Source of the DNA: an uncultured Bacteroidales bacterium
GTDB lineage: Bacteria; Bacteroidota; Bacteroidia; Bacteroidales; Paludibacteraceae
Length of the DNA: 46,868 nucleotides
Assembly: GCA_900318245.1 (NCBI GenBank)
Contig: ONJT01000022.1
Coordinates: forward strand, 1 to 46,868
Reading direction: 5' to 3'
Below are positions 13,261-17,974 of the stretch, one piece after another. The number at the start of each line of letters is the position of its first letter. Within the stretch, counting starts at the first letter, position 1. The notes beneath the pieces were generated by a model. The model was not told the origin of the DNA. It made no database searches and was given only the letters and a program-made list of their open reading frames with translations. The position numbers and the translations under genes were made by a program.

Positions 13261-15075
13261 ATGCAAAACATACGAAATATAGCTATTATTGCGCACGTCG
13301 ATCACGGCAAGACGACCTTGGTCGATAAGATGCTGTACACGGCGAATGTTATCAGCCGTCAGCAATCAGCATTCAGTGATCAGCCGAAGGAGTTGATATT
13401 GGACAACAACGACTTGGAGCGTGAGCGCGGTATCACCATTCTGGCGAAGAACGTCGCCATCGAGTACAAGGGCGTTAAGATCAACATCATCGACACTCCG
13501 GGTCACGCGGACTTCGGCGGCGAAGTGGAGCGCGTGCTGAACATGGCCGACGGTGTACTGCTGCTGGTAGATGCGTTCGAAGGCGCGATGCCGCAGACCC
13601 GCTTTGTGCTGCAGAAAGCGTTGGAGATCGGTCTCAAACCGATCGTAGTGATCAACAAAGTAGATAAGCTGAACTGCCGTCCGGACGAGGTACAAGAAGA
13701 GGTATTTGACCTGATGTGCAACCTCAACGCGACGGATGATCAGTTGGATTTCCAGACGCTGTACGGTAGTGCCAAGCAAGGCTGGATGAGTACCGATTGG
13801 CGCAAGCCGAAGACGGATCTGACGGACCTGATGGACGCCATCATCAAGTATATCCCGGCGCCGGAAGAGAACCCGGGTACGCCGCAGATGTTGGTGACTT
13901 CGCTGGACTACAACTCCTATGTCGGCCGTATTGCGATCGGTCGCGTGCATAGAGGTGAGTTCAAGGACGGACAGGCCGTGACGCTGGCGAAGAAAGACGG
14001 CACGATGATCAAGACGAAGATCAAAGAGCTGCACACTTTCTCGGGAATGGGTCATGTGAAGACCGACGTGGTGAAGAACGGCGACATCTGCGCGATGATC
14101 GGTATTGACGGTTTTGAGATCGGCGACACGATATGCGACGCAGAGAATCCCGAACCGCTGAAGCCGATTGCTATCGACGAGCCGACGATGAGTATGACCT
14201 TCTGCATCAACGACAGTCCTTTCTTCGGTCAGGACGGAAAGTTCGTGACGAGCCGTCATATCCAGGACCGATTGAACAAAGAGCTGGAGAAAAACCTGGC
14301 GCTGCGCGTAGAGAAAGGTGCGGAAGAAAGCAGTTGGCGTGTCTATGGCCGCGGTGTGCTGCACTTGTCGGTGCTGATCGAGACCATGCGCCGCGAAGGA
14401 TATGAGTTACAGGTGGGTCAACCGCAGGTCATCATCAAAGAGATCGACGGCGTGAAATGCGAACCGGTGGAGAGTCTGACGGTGAACACGCCGGAAGAGT
14501 GCTCGGGTAAGATCATCGAGTTTGTCAGCACCCATAAGGGCGAGATGACGAAGATGGAGATGGTCAACGACCGCGTGCACCTCGAGTTCACCATCCCGAG
14601 TCGCGGCATCATGGGTATGCGTACCTATGTGATGAACGTCTCGGCCGGTGAGGCGATCATGGCGCACCGCTTCCTCGAGTACCAGCCGTGGAAAGGCGAG
14701 ATCGTGAAGCGTACGAACGGTTCGCTCATCGCCATGGAAGCCGGAACGGCATATGCGTACGCCTTGGACAAGCTGCAAGACCGCGGTAAGTTCTTCATCG
14801 ACCCACAAGAGGAGGTATATGCCGGTCAGGTAGTAGGCGAGAACGCGAAAGAAGGCGACATCGTCATCAACGTGACCAAGTCCAAGAAACTGACGAACAT
14901 GCGTTCGAAGAGTGCGGACGACAAGGCTGTGTTACCACCGCCCGTTCGCATGAGTCTCGAAGAAGCGCTGGAGTATATCAAGGAGGATGAGTATGTGGAG
15001 GTAACACCGCACGCGATGCGTATCCGCAAGATCATCCTCGACGAGCTCGAGCGAAAACGCGCGGGAAGGGCTTAA
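13261..15075 (+). CDS. typA: Ribosome-associated GTPase TypA/BipA
   Basis: 604 residues, the usual length of the family. GTPase motifs are all present: P-loop [10 protein letters not shown] (about residues 11-20), switch region [20 protein letters not shown] (G3) and NKVDK (G4). The elongation-factor-like domains follow, for example [20 protein letters not shown] and the TypA C-terminal region (HEF-like [12 protein letters not shown]). BipA binds the 70S ribosome in a GTP-dependent way and supports 50S assembly and stress adaptation. The gene opens a plus-strand run of housekeeping genes and has its own strong promoter. Just past its stop codon lies the first copy of a 100-nt structured repeat. 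Confidence 0.98.
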
Positions 15076-15077
15076 AT

Positions 15078-15177
15078 CGTTCGCATATCAACCCTTCGGA
15101 GGAATTCGCCCCCTGCTCAATGACTCTCGCGGACCCAAACCGCTCGAGACACCTCCGAGAGGGTTATATGCTCACTC
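15078..15177 (+). repeat. 100-nt structured repeat, copy 1 (after typA)
   Basis: Identical over 100 nt to 18005-18104 in the same orientation. The ends form a long imperfect inverted repeat: CATATCAACCCTTCGGAGG near the start pairs with CCTCCGAGAGGGTTATATG near the end. An inner stem (TCTCG-CGG with CCG-C-TCGAGA) also forms. It starts 3 nt after the typA stop and ends where the next element begins. It has no coding potential that I can support. It could be a small palindromic mobile element or a 3'-end RNA structure. Confidence 0.9.
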
Positions 15178-15293
15178 TGATTATTGATTTTATTTTAAAA
15201 GAATCTTTATTTCGAAAACTTATTTTTAAATAAATTTAACATAACTTTTCCAAATAAATCTTCCGGATTTTTCAACTCCAAAATCAATAATCA
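15178..15293 (+). promoter_or_regulatory. Inverted-repeat leader element A, before tig
   Basis: A 14-bp perfect inverted repeat (TGATTATTGATTTT at 15178-15191, AAAATCAATAATCA at 15280-15293) encloses about 88 nt of AT-rich sequence. It is followed by CAAAAATACCAAAAATA. An element of the same build lies before mpl (16462-16582); its arms carry a compensated T-A to G-C change, and the interiors share TCTT-ATT-CG and TAAATA-ATTT patches in the same order. This looks like a conserved RNA or DNA hairpin, not chance. No Bacteroidota promoter box was found between it and tig. Confidence 0.7.
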
Positions 15294-15343
15294 GCAAAAA
15301 TACCAAAAATATTTTTCGTAATCATATTTAAAATTATAGTATA

Positions 15344-16426
15344 ATGAAAATTGAACAAAGTGAATTGAAAGACCTGAATGGCGTGGTAACGATTACGATC
15401 GAGCCGGCTGATTATCAGGAAGAAGTAGCCAAAGAGCTGAAACAAGTGCGTCAGAAAGCGCAGATGCCCGGTTTCCGTCCGGGAATGGTTCCGGCAGGTT
15501 TGGTAAAGAAGATGTACGGCAAAGGTATCCTGGCCGACGTACTGAACAAGAAAGTAGGCGAAGGTCTGCAGAAGCACATCGAGGACAACAAGATTCAAAT
15601 CCTCGGTGATCCGCTGCCCAGCGAGAACGCTCCGCGTATTGATCTGGATCACGACGACACCTTTACCTTTAGTTTTGACATCGCTGTAGCACCGGAGTTC
15701 GACGCCAAACTGACGGCTAAGAACAAACTGCCGGAGTACACGATCGAGGCTACCGAAGAGATGATCGACAAGCAGGTGGAGGCGTATACCAACCGCTTCG
15801 GAGAGTATATCCCGGAGGACAAAGAAAAAGGTACGAAAGCAGAAGTGAAGCCGTGCAAGGTAGATGCTGAGTTGTTCGCAAAAGTATATGGCGACAAGGC
15901 TCCGAAGACCGAGAAAGAGTTCCGCGCTCGCATCAAAGAAGATATCGAGCGTAGTCTGGCAGAAGAGAGCAAGTACCGCTTCGGTATCGACGCCAAAGCA
16001 GCTATCCTGAAGAAACTGGAGAAGGTGCAGTTCCCGGTTGACTTCCTCAAACGTTGGGTACTCGCTACAAACGAGAAGATGACCCAAGAGGAACTCGATA
16101 AAGATTTCGACAAGATGCTCGAGGAACTGAAATGGCAACTCGCGAAGGACCAGTTGATGAAGGAGTACAACATCAACGTCGAGAAAGAAGAGGTAGAAGA
16201 TTTCGCAAAACGTATCGCGAAGATGCAGTTCATGCAGTACGGTCTGATGAACGTGGAAGACGAGCACCTGACGAACTACGCGAACGAGATGCTCAAGCAG
16301 GAGAACCAACTGCGCGGCATCGTAGAGCGCGTCGTAGAAGACAAGATCTTCGCAGCGCTGAAGGGTGTAGCCAAGATCGAGCCGAAGACCGTAAGCCAAG
16401 AGGAGTTCGACAAACTGTTTAAGTAA
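15344..16426 (+). CDS. tig: Trigger factor without a PPIase domain
   Basis: 360 residues, against about 430-450 for most trigger factors. The N-terminal ribosome-binding domain is clear, with the signature loop GFRPGMVP at residues 43-50 (the canonical GFRxGxxP; one usually basic position is Met). The C-terminal chaperone arms are clear from about residue 172 (VDAELFAKVYGDKAPKTEKE) to the end. Between them (residues 150-172) there is only a short charged linker, so the FKBP-like peptidyl-prolyl isomerase domain of about 80-100 residues is absent. The reading frame is intact, so this is a natural domain loss and not a frameshift. The protein should still hold nascent chains at the ribosome exit. 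It is preceded by the inverted-repeat element A. Confidence 0.93.
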   Translation: MKIEQSELKDLNGVVTITIEPADYQEEVAKELKQVRQKAQMPGFRPGMVPAGLVKKMYGKGILADVLNKKVGEGLQKHIEDNKIQILGDPLPSENAPRIDLDHDDTFTFSFDIAVAPEFDAKLTAKNKLPEYTIEATEEMIDKQVEAYTNRFGEYIPEDKEKGTKAEVKPCKVDAELFAKVYGDKAPKTEKEFRARIKEDIERSLAEESKYRFGIDAKAAILKKLEKVQFPVDFLKRWVLATNEKMTQEELDKDFDKMLEELKWQLAKDQLMKEYNINVEKEEVEDFAKRIAKMQFMQYGLMNVEDEHLTNYANEMLKQENQLRGIVERVVEDKIFAALKGVAKIEPKTVSQEEFDKLFK

Positions 16427-16461
16427 TTGATAATTATTAAAAGAAAAATACATAAAAAATA

Positions 16462-16582
16462 TGATGATTGATTTTAGTACTTCGTACCATGAGTCTTATT
16501 CCGCTAAAATGCTCTCTTAAATACATTTACAGACCATTTTATCCGAATAATCCTCATCTCTTTGAGATAAAATCAATCATCA
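16462..16582 (+). promoter_or_regulatory. Inverted-repeat leader element B, before mpl
   Basis: A perfect 15-bp inverted repeat (TGATGATTGATTTTA at 16462-16476, TAAAATCAATCATCA at 16568-16582) encloses about 91 nt. It is followed, as in element A, by CAAAAATACCAAAAATA. Compared with element A, arm position 5 changes from T to G and its partner from A to C, so pairing is kept. The inner GTACTTCGTAC also forms a small hairpin (16477-16487). It lies 35 nt after tig and 66 nt before mpl. Confidence 0.7.
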
Positions 16583-16648
16583 CAAAAATACCAAAAATAA
16601 TTTATTTCATAGTAGGATACAAACACGCTGCATAGATTATAATCGTAA

Positions 16649-17974
16649 ATGGTTAGGATTCATTTTATAGCTATTGGTGGCGCGGCGATGCATAACTTGG
16701 CATTGGCCGTGGCCTCCAAAGCGGGGTACAGAGTGACGGGGTCGGATGATGAGATCTTCGACCCCGCTTTGTCTCATCTTCGCGAGGCAGGACTATTGCC
16801 GGACGAGATGGGATGGCACCCCGAACGCATCACCAAGGACATCGATGCGATCATCCTCGGCATGCATGCCCGCGAGGACAATCCGGAATTGGTTCGTGCC
16901 CGCGAGTTGGGTATCAAGATCTACTCTTTCCCGGAGTATCTGTACGAGCAGACGAAGGATAAGATCCGTATCGTGGTAGGTGGCAGTCACGGCAAGACGA
17001 CCACGACCTCGATGATTCTGTATGTACTCAACCGTTTAGGCATTGAAGCCGATTATATGGTAGGTGCGCAGATCGAAGGCTTCGAGCGAATGGTACGGTT
17101 GAGCGACACCGCCAAGTACGCGGTGTTTGAGGGCGATGAGTACCTCACTTCCCCACTCGACTTGCGCTCGAAGTTCCTTTGGTACCACCCGCACGTAGCT
17201 ATCTTGACGGGTATTGCGTGGGATCATATCAATGTGTTCCCCACCTTCCCGGAGTACGTAGAGACCTTCCGGAAGTTCGTAGACAGTTTTGAACCGAACG
17301 GTTCGTTTATCTACTATAAGGGTGATGAGAATCTGCGGGCGATAGCAGAGGGGGCACGCAATGATATCACGTGTATTCCGTATAGCGAGTACACCGGCGA
17401 TGTGGCGATGCAGGTGTTCGGGAAGCATAACATGCAGAACCTGCAGGCCGCGATGTTAGCGTGCCATTGTATTGGGGTCAAACCGGATGATTTCTACCGC
17501 GAGATAGCGTCGTTTACGGGCGCCAGCAACCGCTTGGAGAAGATCGCCGAGACCGCAGACTGCGTGGCATACAAAGACTTTGCGCATAGCCCGAGCAAAC
17601 TGAAGGCAACGGTCAATGCGGTGCGCGAACGCTATCCGGAGAAGCGATTAGTCGCTTGTATGGAGTTGCATACTTTCTCGAGTCTGATGGCGGATTTTCT
17701 GCCGCAATACAAAGGCTGCATGGCCGAAGCGGATGTGGCGTACGTGTATTTCAACCCGAAGGTGATTGAGCACAAGCGCTTAACGCCGATCACGGCCGAA
17801 GAAGTGCGCGAAGCGTTTGGCACGACAAACGTGGAAGTGTTCACAGAGAGCGAGGCGCTGCAAGCAAAATTACGCAGCCTCGAGTACAAGAACACAGCAT
17901 TGCTGATGATGTCCTCAGGCACGTTCGACGGGATTGACGTGAAGGATTTTGCCAATAAATTACTGCACTTTTAG
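16649..17974 (+). CDS. mpl: UDP-N-acetylmuramate:L-Ala-gamma-D-Glu-meso-DAP ligase
   Basis: 441 residues, a Mur ligase of the Mpl branch. The N-terminal Rossmann motif IHFIAIGGAAMHNLALAVA is the form specific to Mpl (MurC has IGGxGMS). The ATP loop is GGSHGKTTTTSMILYVL, followed by FEGDEY and GIAWDHINVFPT, the usual Mur ligase central motifs, and HSPSKLKATV in the C-terminal domain. Mpl re-attaches recycled tripeptide to UDP-MurNAc in peptidoglycan recycling and acts in the cytoplasm. It sits between two structured elements: the inverted-repeat element before it and the second 100-nt repeat after it. Confidence 0.93.
   Translation: MVRIHFIAIGGAAMHNLALAVASKAGYRVTGSDDEIFDPALSHLREAGLLPDEMGWHPERITKDIDAIILGMHAREDNPELVRARELGIKIYSFPEYLYEQTKDKIRIVVGGSHGKTTTTSMILYVLNRLGIEADYMVGAQIEGFERMVRLSDTAKYAVFEGDEYLTSPLDLRSKFLWYHPHVAILTGIAWDHINVFPTFPEYVETFRKFVDSFEPNGSFIYYKGDENLRAIAEGARNDITCIPYSEYTGDVAMQVFGKHNMQNLQAAMLACHCIGVKPDDFYREIASFTGASNRLEKIAETADCVAYKDFAHSPSKLKATVNAVRERYPEKRLVACMELHTFSSLMADFLPQYKGCMAEADVAYVYFNPKVIEHKRLTPITAEEVREAFGTTNVEVFTESEALQAKLRSLEYKNTALLMMSSGTFDGIDVKDFANKLLHF

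Follow-up and report, generated by a model that had tools for sequence, protein, structure and literature searches.

Two palindromic elements, designated w1 and w2, flank tig in a window of 46,868 nucleotides (the whole stretch of DNA analysed here), which is contig ONJT01000022.1 of an uncultured Bacteroidales bacterium of the Paludibacteraceae. Both elements are intergenic, one before tig and the other before a Mur-ligase gene, and the question is what they are doing there. A preliminary description of the sequence had offered two answers, a cis-regulatory RNA for these two genes or, as second option, a MITE-like mobile element. We have examined the structure of the elements, their distribution among related genomes, their turnover and their relation to genes and to GC skew.

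Two palindromic elements beside tig

Both inverted-repeat elements were recovered, each with perfectly pairing arms of 15 bp. For w1, formerly given from position 15178, one more C-G pair closes the stem at 15177. The arms of w1 and w2 differ at one position, and the partner base has changed as well, from T-A to G-C, as had been reported. The arm motif with 0 mismatches occurred at four places in the window, which are the arms of w1 and w2 only; with up to 2 mismatches there were 5 matches as compared to a shuffle mean of 1.45, and 5 was reached by 0 of 100 shuffles. Both elements folded much better than shuffled sequences, with z values of -7.1 (w1) and -6.7 (w2). The similarity of the interiors was borne out by a covariance model built from eight copies, which matched both elements with the scores listed in Table 1, w1 and w2 both being among its 8 training copies. 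The common tail CAAAAATACCAAAAATA was found after both cores, at 15295-15311 in w1 and at 16583-16599 in w2. Element w1 is a poor copy with respect to its side hairpins, P2 being degenerate and P4 absent from the predicted fold; the tip of its central arm is AAATAAATTT. A near-twin of w1 with a complete left tail is present in the relative L245.

Table 1. Positions of genes, elements and element parts in the window, and of close copy pairs in other loci
Feature	Position	Strand	Remarks
typA	13261..15075	+	upstream of w1; TIGR01394, 888 bits, above cut-off
w1 palindromic core	15177..15294	+	fold, arm complementarity, 80.9-bit model match
w1 outer stem P1	15177-15191/15280-15294		15 bp, 100% complementary
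w1 right tail	15295..15314	+	CAAAAATACCAAAAATATTT; tail type common to other copies
tig (trigger factor)	15344..16426	+	between w1 and w2; TIGR00115, 169.5 bits, cut-off 180.2
w2 left tail	16438..16461	+	TAAAAGAAAAATACATAAAAAATA; start of homology to copy C10:5392
w2 palindromic core	16462..16582	+	fold, 112.6-bit model match, near-identical copy C10:5392
w2 outer stem P1	16462-16476/16568-16582		15 bp, 100% complementary
w2 P2	16477-16487		loop TTC (GAA on the minus strand)
w2 P3	GAG 16491-16493 to CTC 16553-16555		TC/TC internal loop, tip 16518-16529
w2 P4	around 16556-16568		loop TTT
w2 right tail	16583..16599	+	CAAAAATACCAAAAATA; beyond it, homology to copy C10:5392 fades
mpl/murC-like Mur ligase	16649..17974	+	downstream of w2; TIGR01082 and TIGR01081, both below cut-off
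Close copy pairs	L073 388-695, L079 3488-3788, L193 1863-2231, L205 1699-2062
Further close copy pairs	L208 1844-2214, L238 2356-2724, L354 3374-3722

As to the gene names used previously, the profile match of tig falls just below the curated cut-off; the second gene is a Mur-ligase relative fitting murC (230.7 bits, cut-off 335.1) better than mpl (192.8 bits, cut-off 388.7), with both scores below cut-off. A scan for sigma-70 promoters, with a consensus that is unsuited to this phylum, gave 5 weak matches as compared to a shuffle mean of 2.3.

Directly before w1, a second inverted-repeat element extends over positions 15085-15170 (AACCCTTCGGAGG ... GCCCCCTGCTC ... CCTCCGAGAGGGTT); it occupies the position where L245 has the left tail of its w1 copy. 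Judged by eye, elements like this one precede tig in L246, L259, L261, L262, L272, L276, L283 and L285. In other species (L271 and other named loci), the gaps flanking tig contained many unrelated short palindromic or tandem repeats, of GATCACGTGATC-, CTAG-, AAATTTG- and GACATGACGTCATG-types, as if these gaps were general repeat sites.

A family of elements within one genus

When used as DNA query, w1 already found partial relatives in the genome. The covariance-model search proposed in the preliminary description was then run with the 8-copy model, from which most of the tails had been left out. In the 2.26-Mb genome (G000) it gave 28 matches, which fall on 20 places, the remaining 8 of the 28 being the reverse strand of the same palindromes. 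Loci fetched from several genomes contained 115 places (146 matches before reverse-strand duplicates were removed). Copies at least 93% identical were dropped, leaving 103 copies in which w1 is represented by its near-twin from L245.

Matches were found in 10 of 41 relatives (G000 included). All 10 are of the same genus, and the number of matches per genome ranged from 1 to 24; at that model setting, 15 of the 25 genomes of this genus gave none. A scan of the wider taxonomic family gave matches in 2 of 41 genomes, both of the same genus. The scan of the order was weak, with only 9 candidates scored per genome, and gave matches in 3 of 393 genomes, two of this genus and G397. The G397 match, outside the genus, is a hairpin without tails and was taken as chance. 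Named relatives, identified by means of tig, are MAGs of Paludibacteraceae/Bacteroidales which for the most part come from the guts of ruminants; five of them were searched with the model and all five contained matches. Two exact patterns gave 0 matches each in viral contigs. Rfam matches at gathering score were found neither at w1 and w2 nor at 7 further loci, and w1 alone, searched against Rfam with E up to 5, gave one match far below its cut-off. A search of titles and abstract openings found no publication on this repeat family.

A recurring fold with compensatory changes

The copies share a cloverleaf-like fold with four recurring parts: an outer stem P1, a small left hairpin P2, a long jointed central arm P3 and a small right hairpin P4. 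Near its base, P3 carries an internal loop which has TC opposite TC exactly in 34 of 103 copies; its tip is, for example, AAA-TAAA-TTT, and the loop TAAA occurs in 68 of 103. In a subgroup of copies (L037/L086, L016/L089, L083), the tip lies around ACAAGC closed by GAAA/TTTC, not TAAA. Most copies possess two side hairpins, which on visual inspection do not look like clear inverted copies of one another; the hairpin is missing at P2 in 6 of 103 copies and at P4 in 6 of 103.

The earlier proposal that the hairpin is kept by compensatory change was strongly supported. In a MAFFT alignment of 8 copies, with a structure drawn by hand from two of them, two-sided changes occurred in 24 of 42 pairs, and the covariation score was reached by 0 of 500 shuffles. 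With 28 copies, in an alignment fitted to the model, nearly every pair covaried: two-sided changes were seen in 39 of 42 pairs, and 92.2% of the cells were paired as compared to 67.9% in shuffled controls, pairing dropping to 33-47% when the partners were slid. Covariation alone does not make an intergenic element an RNA. Furthermore, template switching in DNA palindromes can yield compensatory changes without selection.

The better-folding strand

The pairs and loops of the family were examined with respect to strand and molecule. Among 1161 pair cells, 1052 were Watson-Crick, 18 G-T and 32 A-C. As a control, 13 tRNAs from the same loci (2 of 15 dropped as duplicates) contained 21 G-T and 0 A-C in 272 pairs; A-C pairs may not be permitted by ARAGORN, which biases the control in this direction. 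Read on the minus strand, the same cells comprise 32 G-U and 18 A-C pairs.

Of 70 triloops in P2, 55 were TNC, and of 18 tetraloops, 11 were TNNC. For P4 the corresponding numbers were 31 of 68 and 15 of 26, about half of its loops being of other kinds; the expectation for TNC/TNNC loops is 7%. On the minus strand these loops read GNA and GNNA, and GNA loops on the plus strand numbered 0 in P2 and 6 in P4. GNA/GNNA loops are described as extraordinarily stable DNA mini-hairpins (PMC4686876). The minus strand folded better in 103 of 103 copies with DNA parameters and in 102 of 103 with RNA parameters, with a mean advantage of 8 and 11 kcal/mol, respectively; hence, the better-folding strand is clear. 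DNA rather than RNA is suggested by the wobble counts, by GNNA rather than GNRA loops and by an orientation following skew (see below).

Common tails and turnover among relatives

A full copy measures about 160-165 bp and consists of a left A-rich tail of about 22 bp, an imperfect palindrome of 115-130 bp and a right A-rich tail of about 20 bp. The left and right tails resemble each other as direct repeats. Tail types are few, common to many copies and not locus-specific. AAAAATA-like tails are found in most G000 copies, ATAAAC-like tails in G001, G002 and some G000 copies (e.g. on C55, C30 and C13), and AAAAACA-like tails in several G003 and G006 copies. Species-specific tails were ruled out, G000 having both the AAAAATA and the ATAAAC type. 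Alignment of w2 with copy C10:5392 revealed near-identity over the whole unit, both tails included, and divergence beyond; four recent copies in G002 are near-identical and define the same tail-to-tail unit. In these two sets of alignments, no clean target-site duplication was seen by eye.

Copies are gained, lost and exchanged among close relatives. The gap between tig and mpl, inspected by eye, did not exceed 14 nt in 7 of the 9 relatives compared, G021 and G004 carrying other inserts, and none of the 9 had a model match in this gap. In 78 named tig loci, copies were present in the two gaps beside tig in 3 (L244, L245 and L265). L244, with a tig 98% identical, has w2 and a different copy before tig; L245 (tig 93% identical) has w1 and lacks w2; L243 (tig 98% identical) has neither. 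Still other copies, oriented likewise, precede tig in G006 and G001.

At C21:174223 in G000, two tails are fused around one AAAATACC, and G424 has a whole copy between two AAAATACC repeats; this 8-bp direct repeat flanks the core at that one G424 site. The fused-tail pattern was searched for in 8 genomes and found at 2 places in G000, both with copies in G424, and at 1 place in G423. The second G000 place differs in that the tails of the G424 copy are of another type, which points to replacement and not to a simple loss. None of the compared loci provided an entirely clean empty site. Additionally, L210 of G015 contains two copies in direct repeat 530 bp apart (1633-2289), apparently a tandem duplication.

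Near-identical copies occur at unrelated loci, and copies are absent or swapped in close relatives; the family is therefore mobile. Accordingly, the second option of the preliminary description, a MITE-like mobile element, is supported in a broad sense. It had been stated there that a lack of homologues with compensatory changes, or scattered copies with target-site duplications, would speak against a selected hairpin. This holds by half: such homologues exist, but the copies are dispersed and mobile, by eye without a clean target-site duplication and at 66 of 68 places outside kept ORFs of at least 120 aa. Elements w1 and w2 thus belong to a real mobile family, which among the genomes searched occurs in one genus only.

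Orientation tends to follow GC skew

The orientation of the copies agreed with local GC skew, taken as a proxy for replication direction, at 80 of 115 places. At the level of loci the agreement was 58 of 75 (p=2e-6), 9 of an initial 84 having been dropped for lack of a net orientation; some of the loci are orthologous, so they are not independent. Agreement with net coding direction was seen at 58 of 115 places and 41 of 75 loci. Where skew and coding disagreed, orientation followed skew in 21 of 25 loci, and third-position skew was on average positive on the plus strand of the element for genes of either direction. Agreement with skew was 36 of 48 when three close relatives and unassigned loci were left out. 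Orientation ran against skew at 17 of 75 loci, G018 agreeing in 1 of 3 and G015 in 0 of 1. On contig C38, minus copies lie at 44-72 kb, against skew, and plus copies at 103-121 kb; a replication boundary at this switch was ruled out, as the skew does not flip there. If the G-rich strand is the leading strand, the well-folding minus strand tends to lie on the leading-strand template. Orientation tends to follow GC skew, not gene direction.

Position relative to genes

Almost all copies are intergenic: 66 of 68 places overlapped no kept ORF of at least 120 aa, and the other 2 overlapped by more than 30 nt with doubtful frames. Many copies fill the intergenic gap, with little left over but tails. 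Some have downstream of the element what we take to be a promoter-like motif. The copies have no fixed relation to gene direction. Neighbour arrangements were scored at 58 places, 10 of 68 having been dropped without a called neighbour on both sides, and were ++ in 23, -+ in 14, +- in 12 and -- in 9 cases; the ORFs were called mechanically and some are wrong, a spurious antisense frame replacing tig next to w1. Two copies less than 400 bp apart were convergent in 7 of 8 pairs (close pairs are listed in Table 1), and copies 400-2500 bp apart shared orientation in 14 of 17 pairs. The latter had suggested gene cassettes of the attC-like kind; these were rejected, as tig and its neighbour keep their place in relatives without copies, and are also disfavoured by the genes between other copies, which look like housekeeping genes.

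A TnpA-REP-like gene as a lead

Genomes of the genus were searched for the Y1 domain (PF01797). Matches were found in 13 of 31 genomes; G000 was without match to this model, which is too weak for this subclass, and the negative for G000 accordingly carries no weight. Of 12 fetched Y1-like loci, seven encode proteins with an HUH-like PDHIH/PDHVH motif, about 330-390 aa in length and in one case broken; no family copies were found near the 12 loci within the roughly 3 kb fetched. A tblastn search over the fetched loci revealed one more TnpA-REP-like gene, on C36 of G424 (L353 725-1771), whose product is matched by PF01797 with only 15 bits (E 0.028). This protein and the two of the seven that were scanned gave a weak match, below cut-off, to the NCBIfam REP-associated tyrosine transposase. 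The L353 gene lies between two family copies, at distances of about 630 and 720 bp, one of these copies being truncated by the contig end, with a third copy 2.4 kb off; by eye, it has hairpin repeats of its own which are closer than the family copies. We regard it as a candidate enzyme, a lead rather than a link.

The TnpA-REP-like proteins of L353, L216 and L218-L222, about 330-390 aa in size, have a long extra C-terminal part and are poorly detected by PF01797. Tandem hairpin repeats, for example TCGCTCAATGATGAGCGA, lie on either side of the gene in L216.

Discussion

What, then, are w1 and w2? We consider it probable that they are copies of a non-autonomous mobile DNA element whose minus strand folds as single-stranded DNA and which is moved in trans by a single-strand recombinase, most likely of the TnpA-REP (HUH) type. 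The active form would be the folded minus strand with its side hairpins capped by GNA or GNNA loops, and the element would become single-stranded at the replication fork. A trans-acting recombinase, most likely TnpA-REP, may recognize the fold, cut at the tails and rejoin them, which would allow both insertion between genes and removal leaving a fused tail. Any effects on tig or mpl would be incidental to the intergenic position.

The family is REPIN-like and most probably belongs, as a variant, to the single-stranded-DNA miniature elements. By behaviour, REPINs/BIMEs with TnpA-REP (RAYT) are closest, being likewise short intergenic palindromes in many copies with compensatory changes. They are described as showing such changes and predicted single-stranded DNA folds including a clover form, and as thought to be moved in trans (PMC3116915). 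Unlike REPINs, the family described here has two unequal side hairpins flanking a long jointed arm, plus direct-repeat tails; by eye, a GTAG-type foot was not noticed, and neither was an adjacent transposase apart from the one lead in G424. Subclass 2.6 of TnpA-REP, from Bacteroidetes, is reported to be flanked by atypical structures, said in that account to be without a GTAG/GTGG-type tetranucleotide (PMC6006769). Compared by description, these structures could include elements such as this family. The cognate transposase is still only a candidate; we therefore do not file the family as REPIN.

Other known systems share part of these properties. Integron attC sites are also sequence-poor and structure-rich with one strand folding as active form, and attC bottom strands in chromosomal integrons are reported to lie mostly on the leading-strand template (PMC8946536). 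However, attC sites form a single hairpin with extrahelical bases, not a four-way junction, and the elements found here are not tied to cassettes, with housekeeping genes lying between copies. IS200/IS605 elements act on single-stranded DNA at the lagging-strand template and recognize hairpins (PMC6006769); the same mode of action would be shared by our family, which unlike these elements has no internal gene and one central cloverleaf instead of a hairpin at each end. ERIC, Correia and similar MITEs have a size similar to the elements described here, and are likewise imperfect AT-rich intergenic palindromes of variable copy number. In contrast to these, our family keeps its fine structure from species to species, has tails outside the inverted repeat and an orientation linked to GC skew, and was found here only in one genus of another phylum.

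It is also conceivable, although we hold this only tentatively, that the elements represent a new class of miniature mobile DNA, of which the only recognized feature would be single-stranded DNA folded into a four-way junction, with GNA loops capping the side hairpins, with purine mismatches and with direct repeats as cut sites; the recombinase would then be neither a known RAYT nor an integron integrase.

An ordinary MITE of a DDE transposase, with the 15-bp arms as terminal inverted repeats cut in trans and the inner structure incidental, appears unlikely. Bacterial MITEs are described as imperfect palindromes which are AT-rich, intergenic and variable in copy number (PMC10969869), and AT-richness, intergenic position, inverted repeats and varying copy number of our family fit this picture. 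The conserved unit, however, runs about 20 bp past the inverted repeats on both sides into the direct-repeat tails, and the arms therefore do not behave as terminal inverted repeats. Neither would tails of few common types instead of locus-specific duplications be expected, nor inner loops and side hairpins recurring across genomes, nor an orientation tending to follow replication skew.

Still less probable is a cis-regulatory or processed RNA element (leader, 3' stabiliser or terminator) that has spread through the genome, the more general form of the function first proposed for w1 and w2. It would be in keeping with the stable fold, the covariation and the intergenic position, with the copies of different sequence before tig in three genomes and in L244, and with ++ being the commonest arrangement (23 of 58). 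On the other side, all four arrangements occur among the 58 places scored with mechanical ORFs, many unrelated genes are neighbours, and copies differ or are absent in close relatives. Orientation followed coding in only 4 of the 25 loci in conflict with skew, a G-U excess of the tRNA kind was not seen, and no terminator-like site was found in 15070-16700. As a general function, a cis-regulatory RNA for tig and mpl was thus not upheld, and for w1 and w2 themselves the comparison of sequences renders this reading unlikely.

We attach only a small probability to a passive palindrome, which would spread without any recombinase by ectopic recombination or gene conversion via the A-rich tails, its pairing being kept by template-switch repair. 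Such conversion would give different copies at the same site and in the same orientation in relatives, as seen upstream of tig and at the second C21 site, and would agree with tails of few common types. Template switching should erase internal loops and side hairpins, yet these recur, as does TC/TC in P3 (34 of 103), and a strand-specific loop bias is not expected. A family of small RNAs transcribed from the better-folding strand, with GNA/GNNA loops and GA/GA internal loops used in RNA binding, is very improbable: RNA parameters favour the minus strand (102 of 103) and G-U pairs outnumber A-C pairs there (32 vs 18), but the G-U share is 2.8% as compared to 7.7% in local tRNAs, which show no A-C, TNNC loops are rarely GNRA on the minus strand (P2, 0 of 11; P4, 2 of the 14 listed out of 15), and Rfam gave no match at gathering scores.

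For the mobile single-stranded DNA element that we favour, the wider interest lies in the structure itself. Small palindromic repeats fill bacterial intergenic space, and the purpose of their structure is seldom clear. This family offers, in one system, three testable statements: a structure conserved without clear G-U preference, loops matching known, very stable DNA hairpins on only one strand, and an orientation tending to follow replication and not transcription. If the single-stranded DNA reading is true, more than 100 natural variants would be at hand for learning how a recombinase reads folded DNA.
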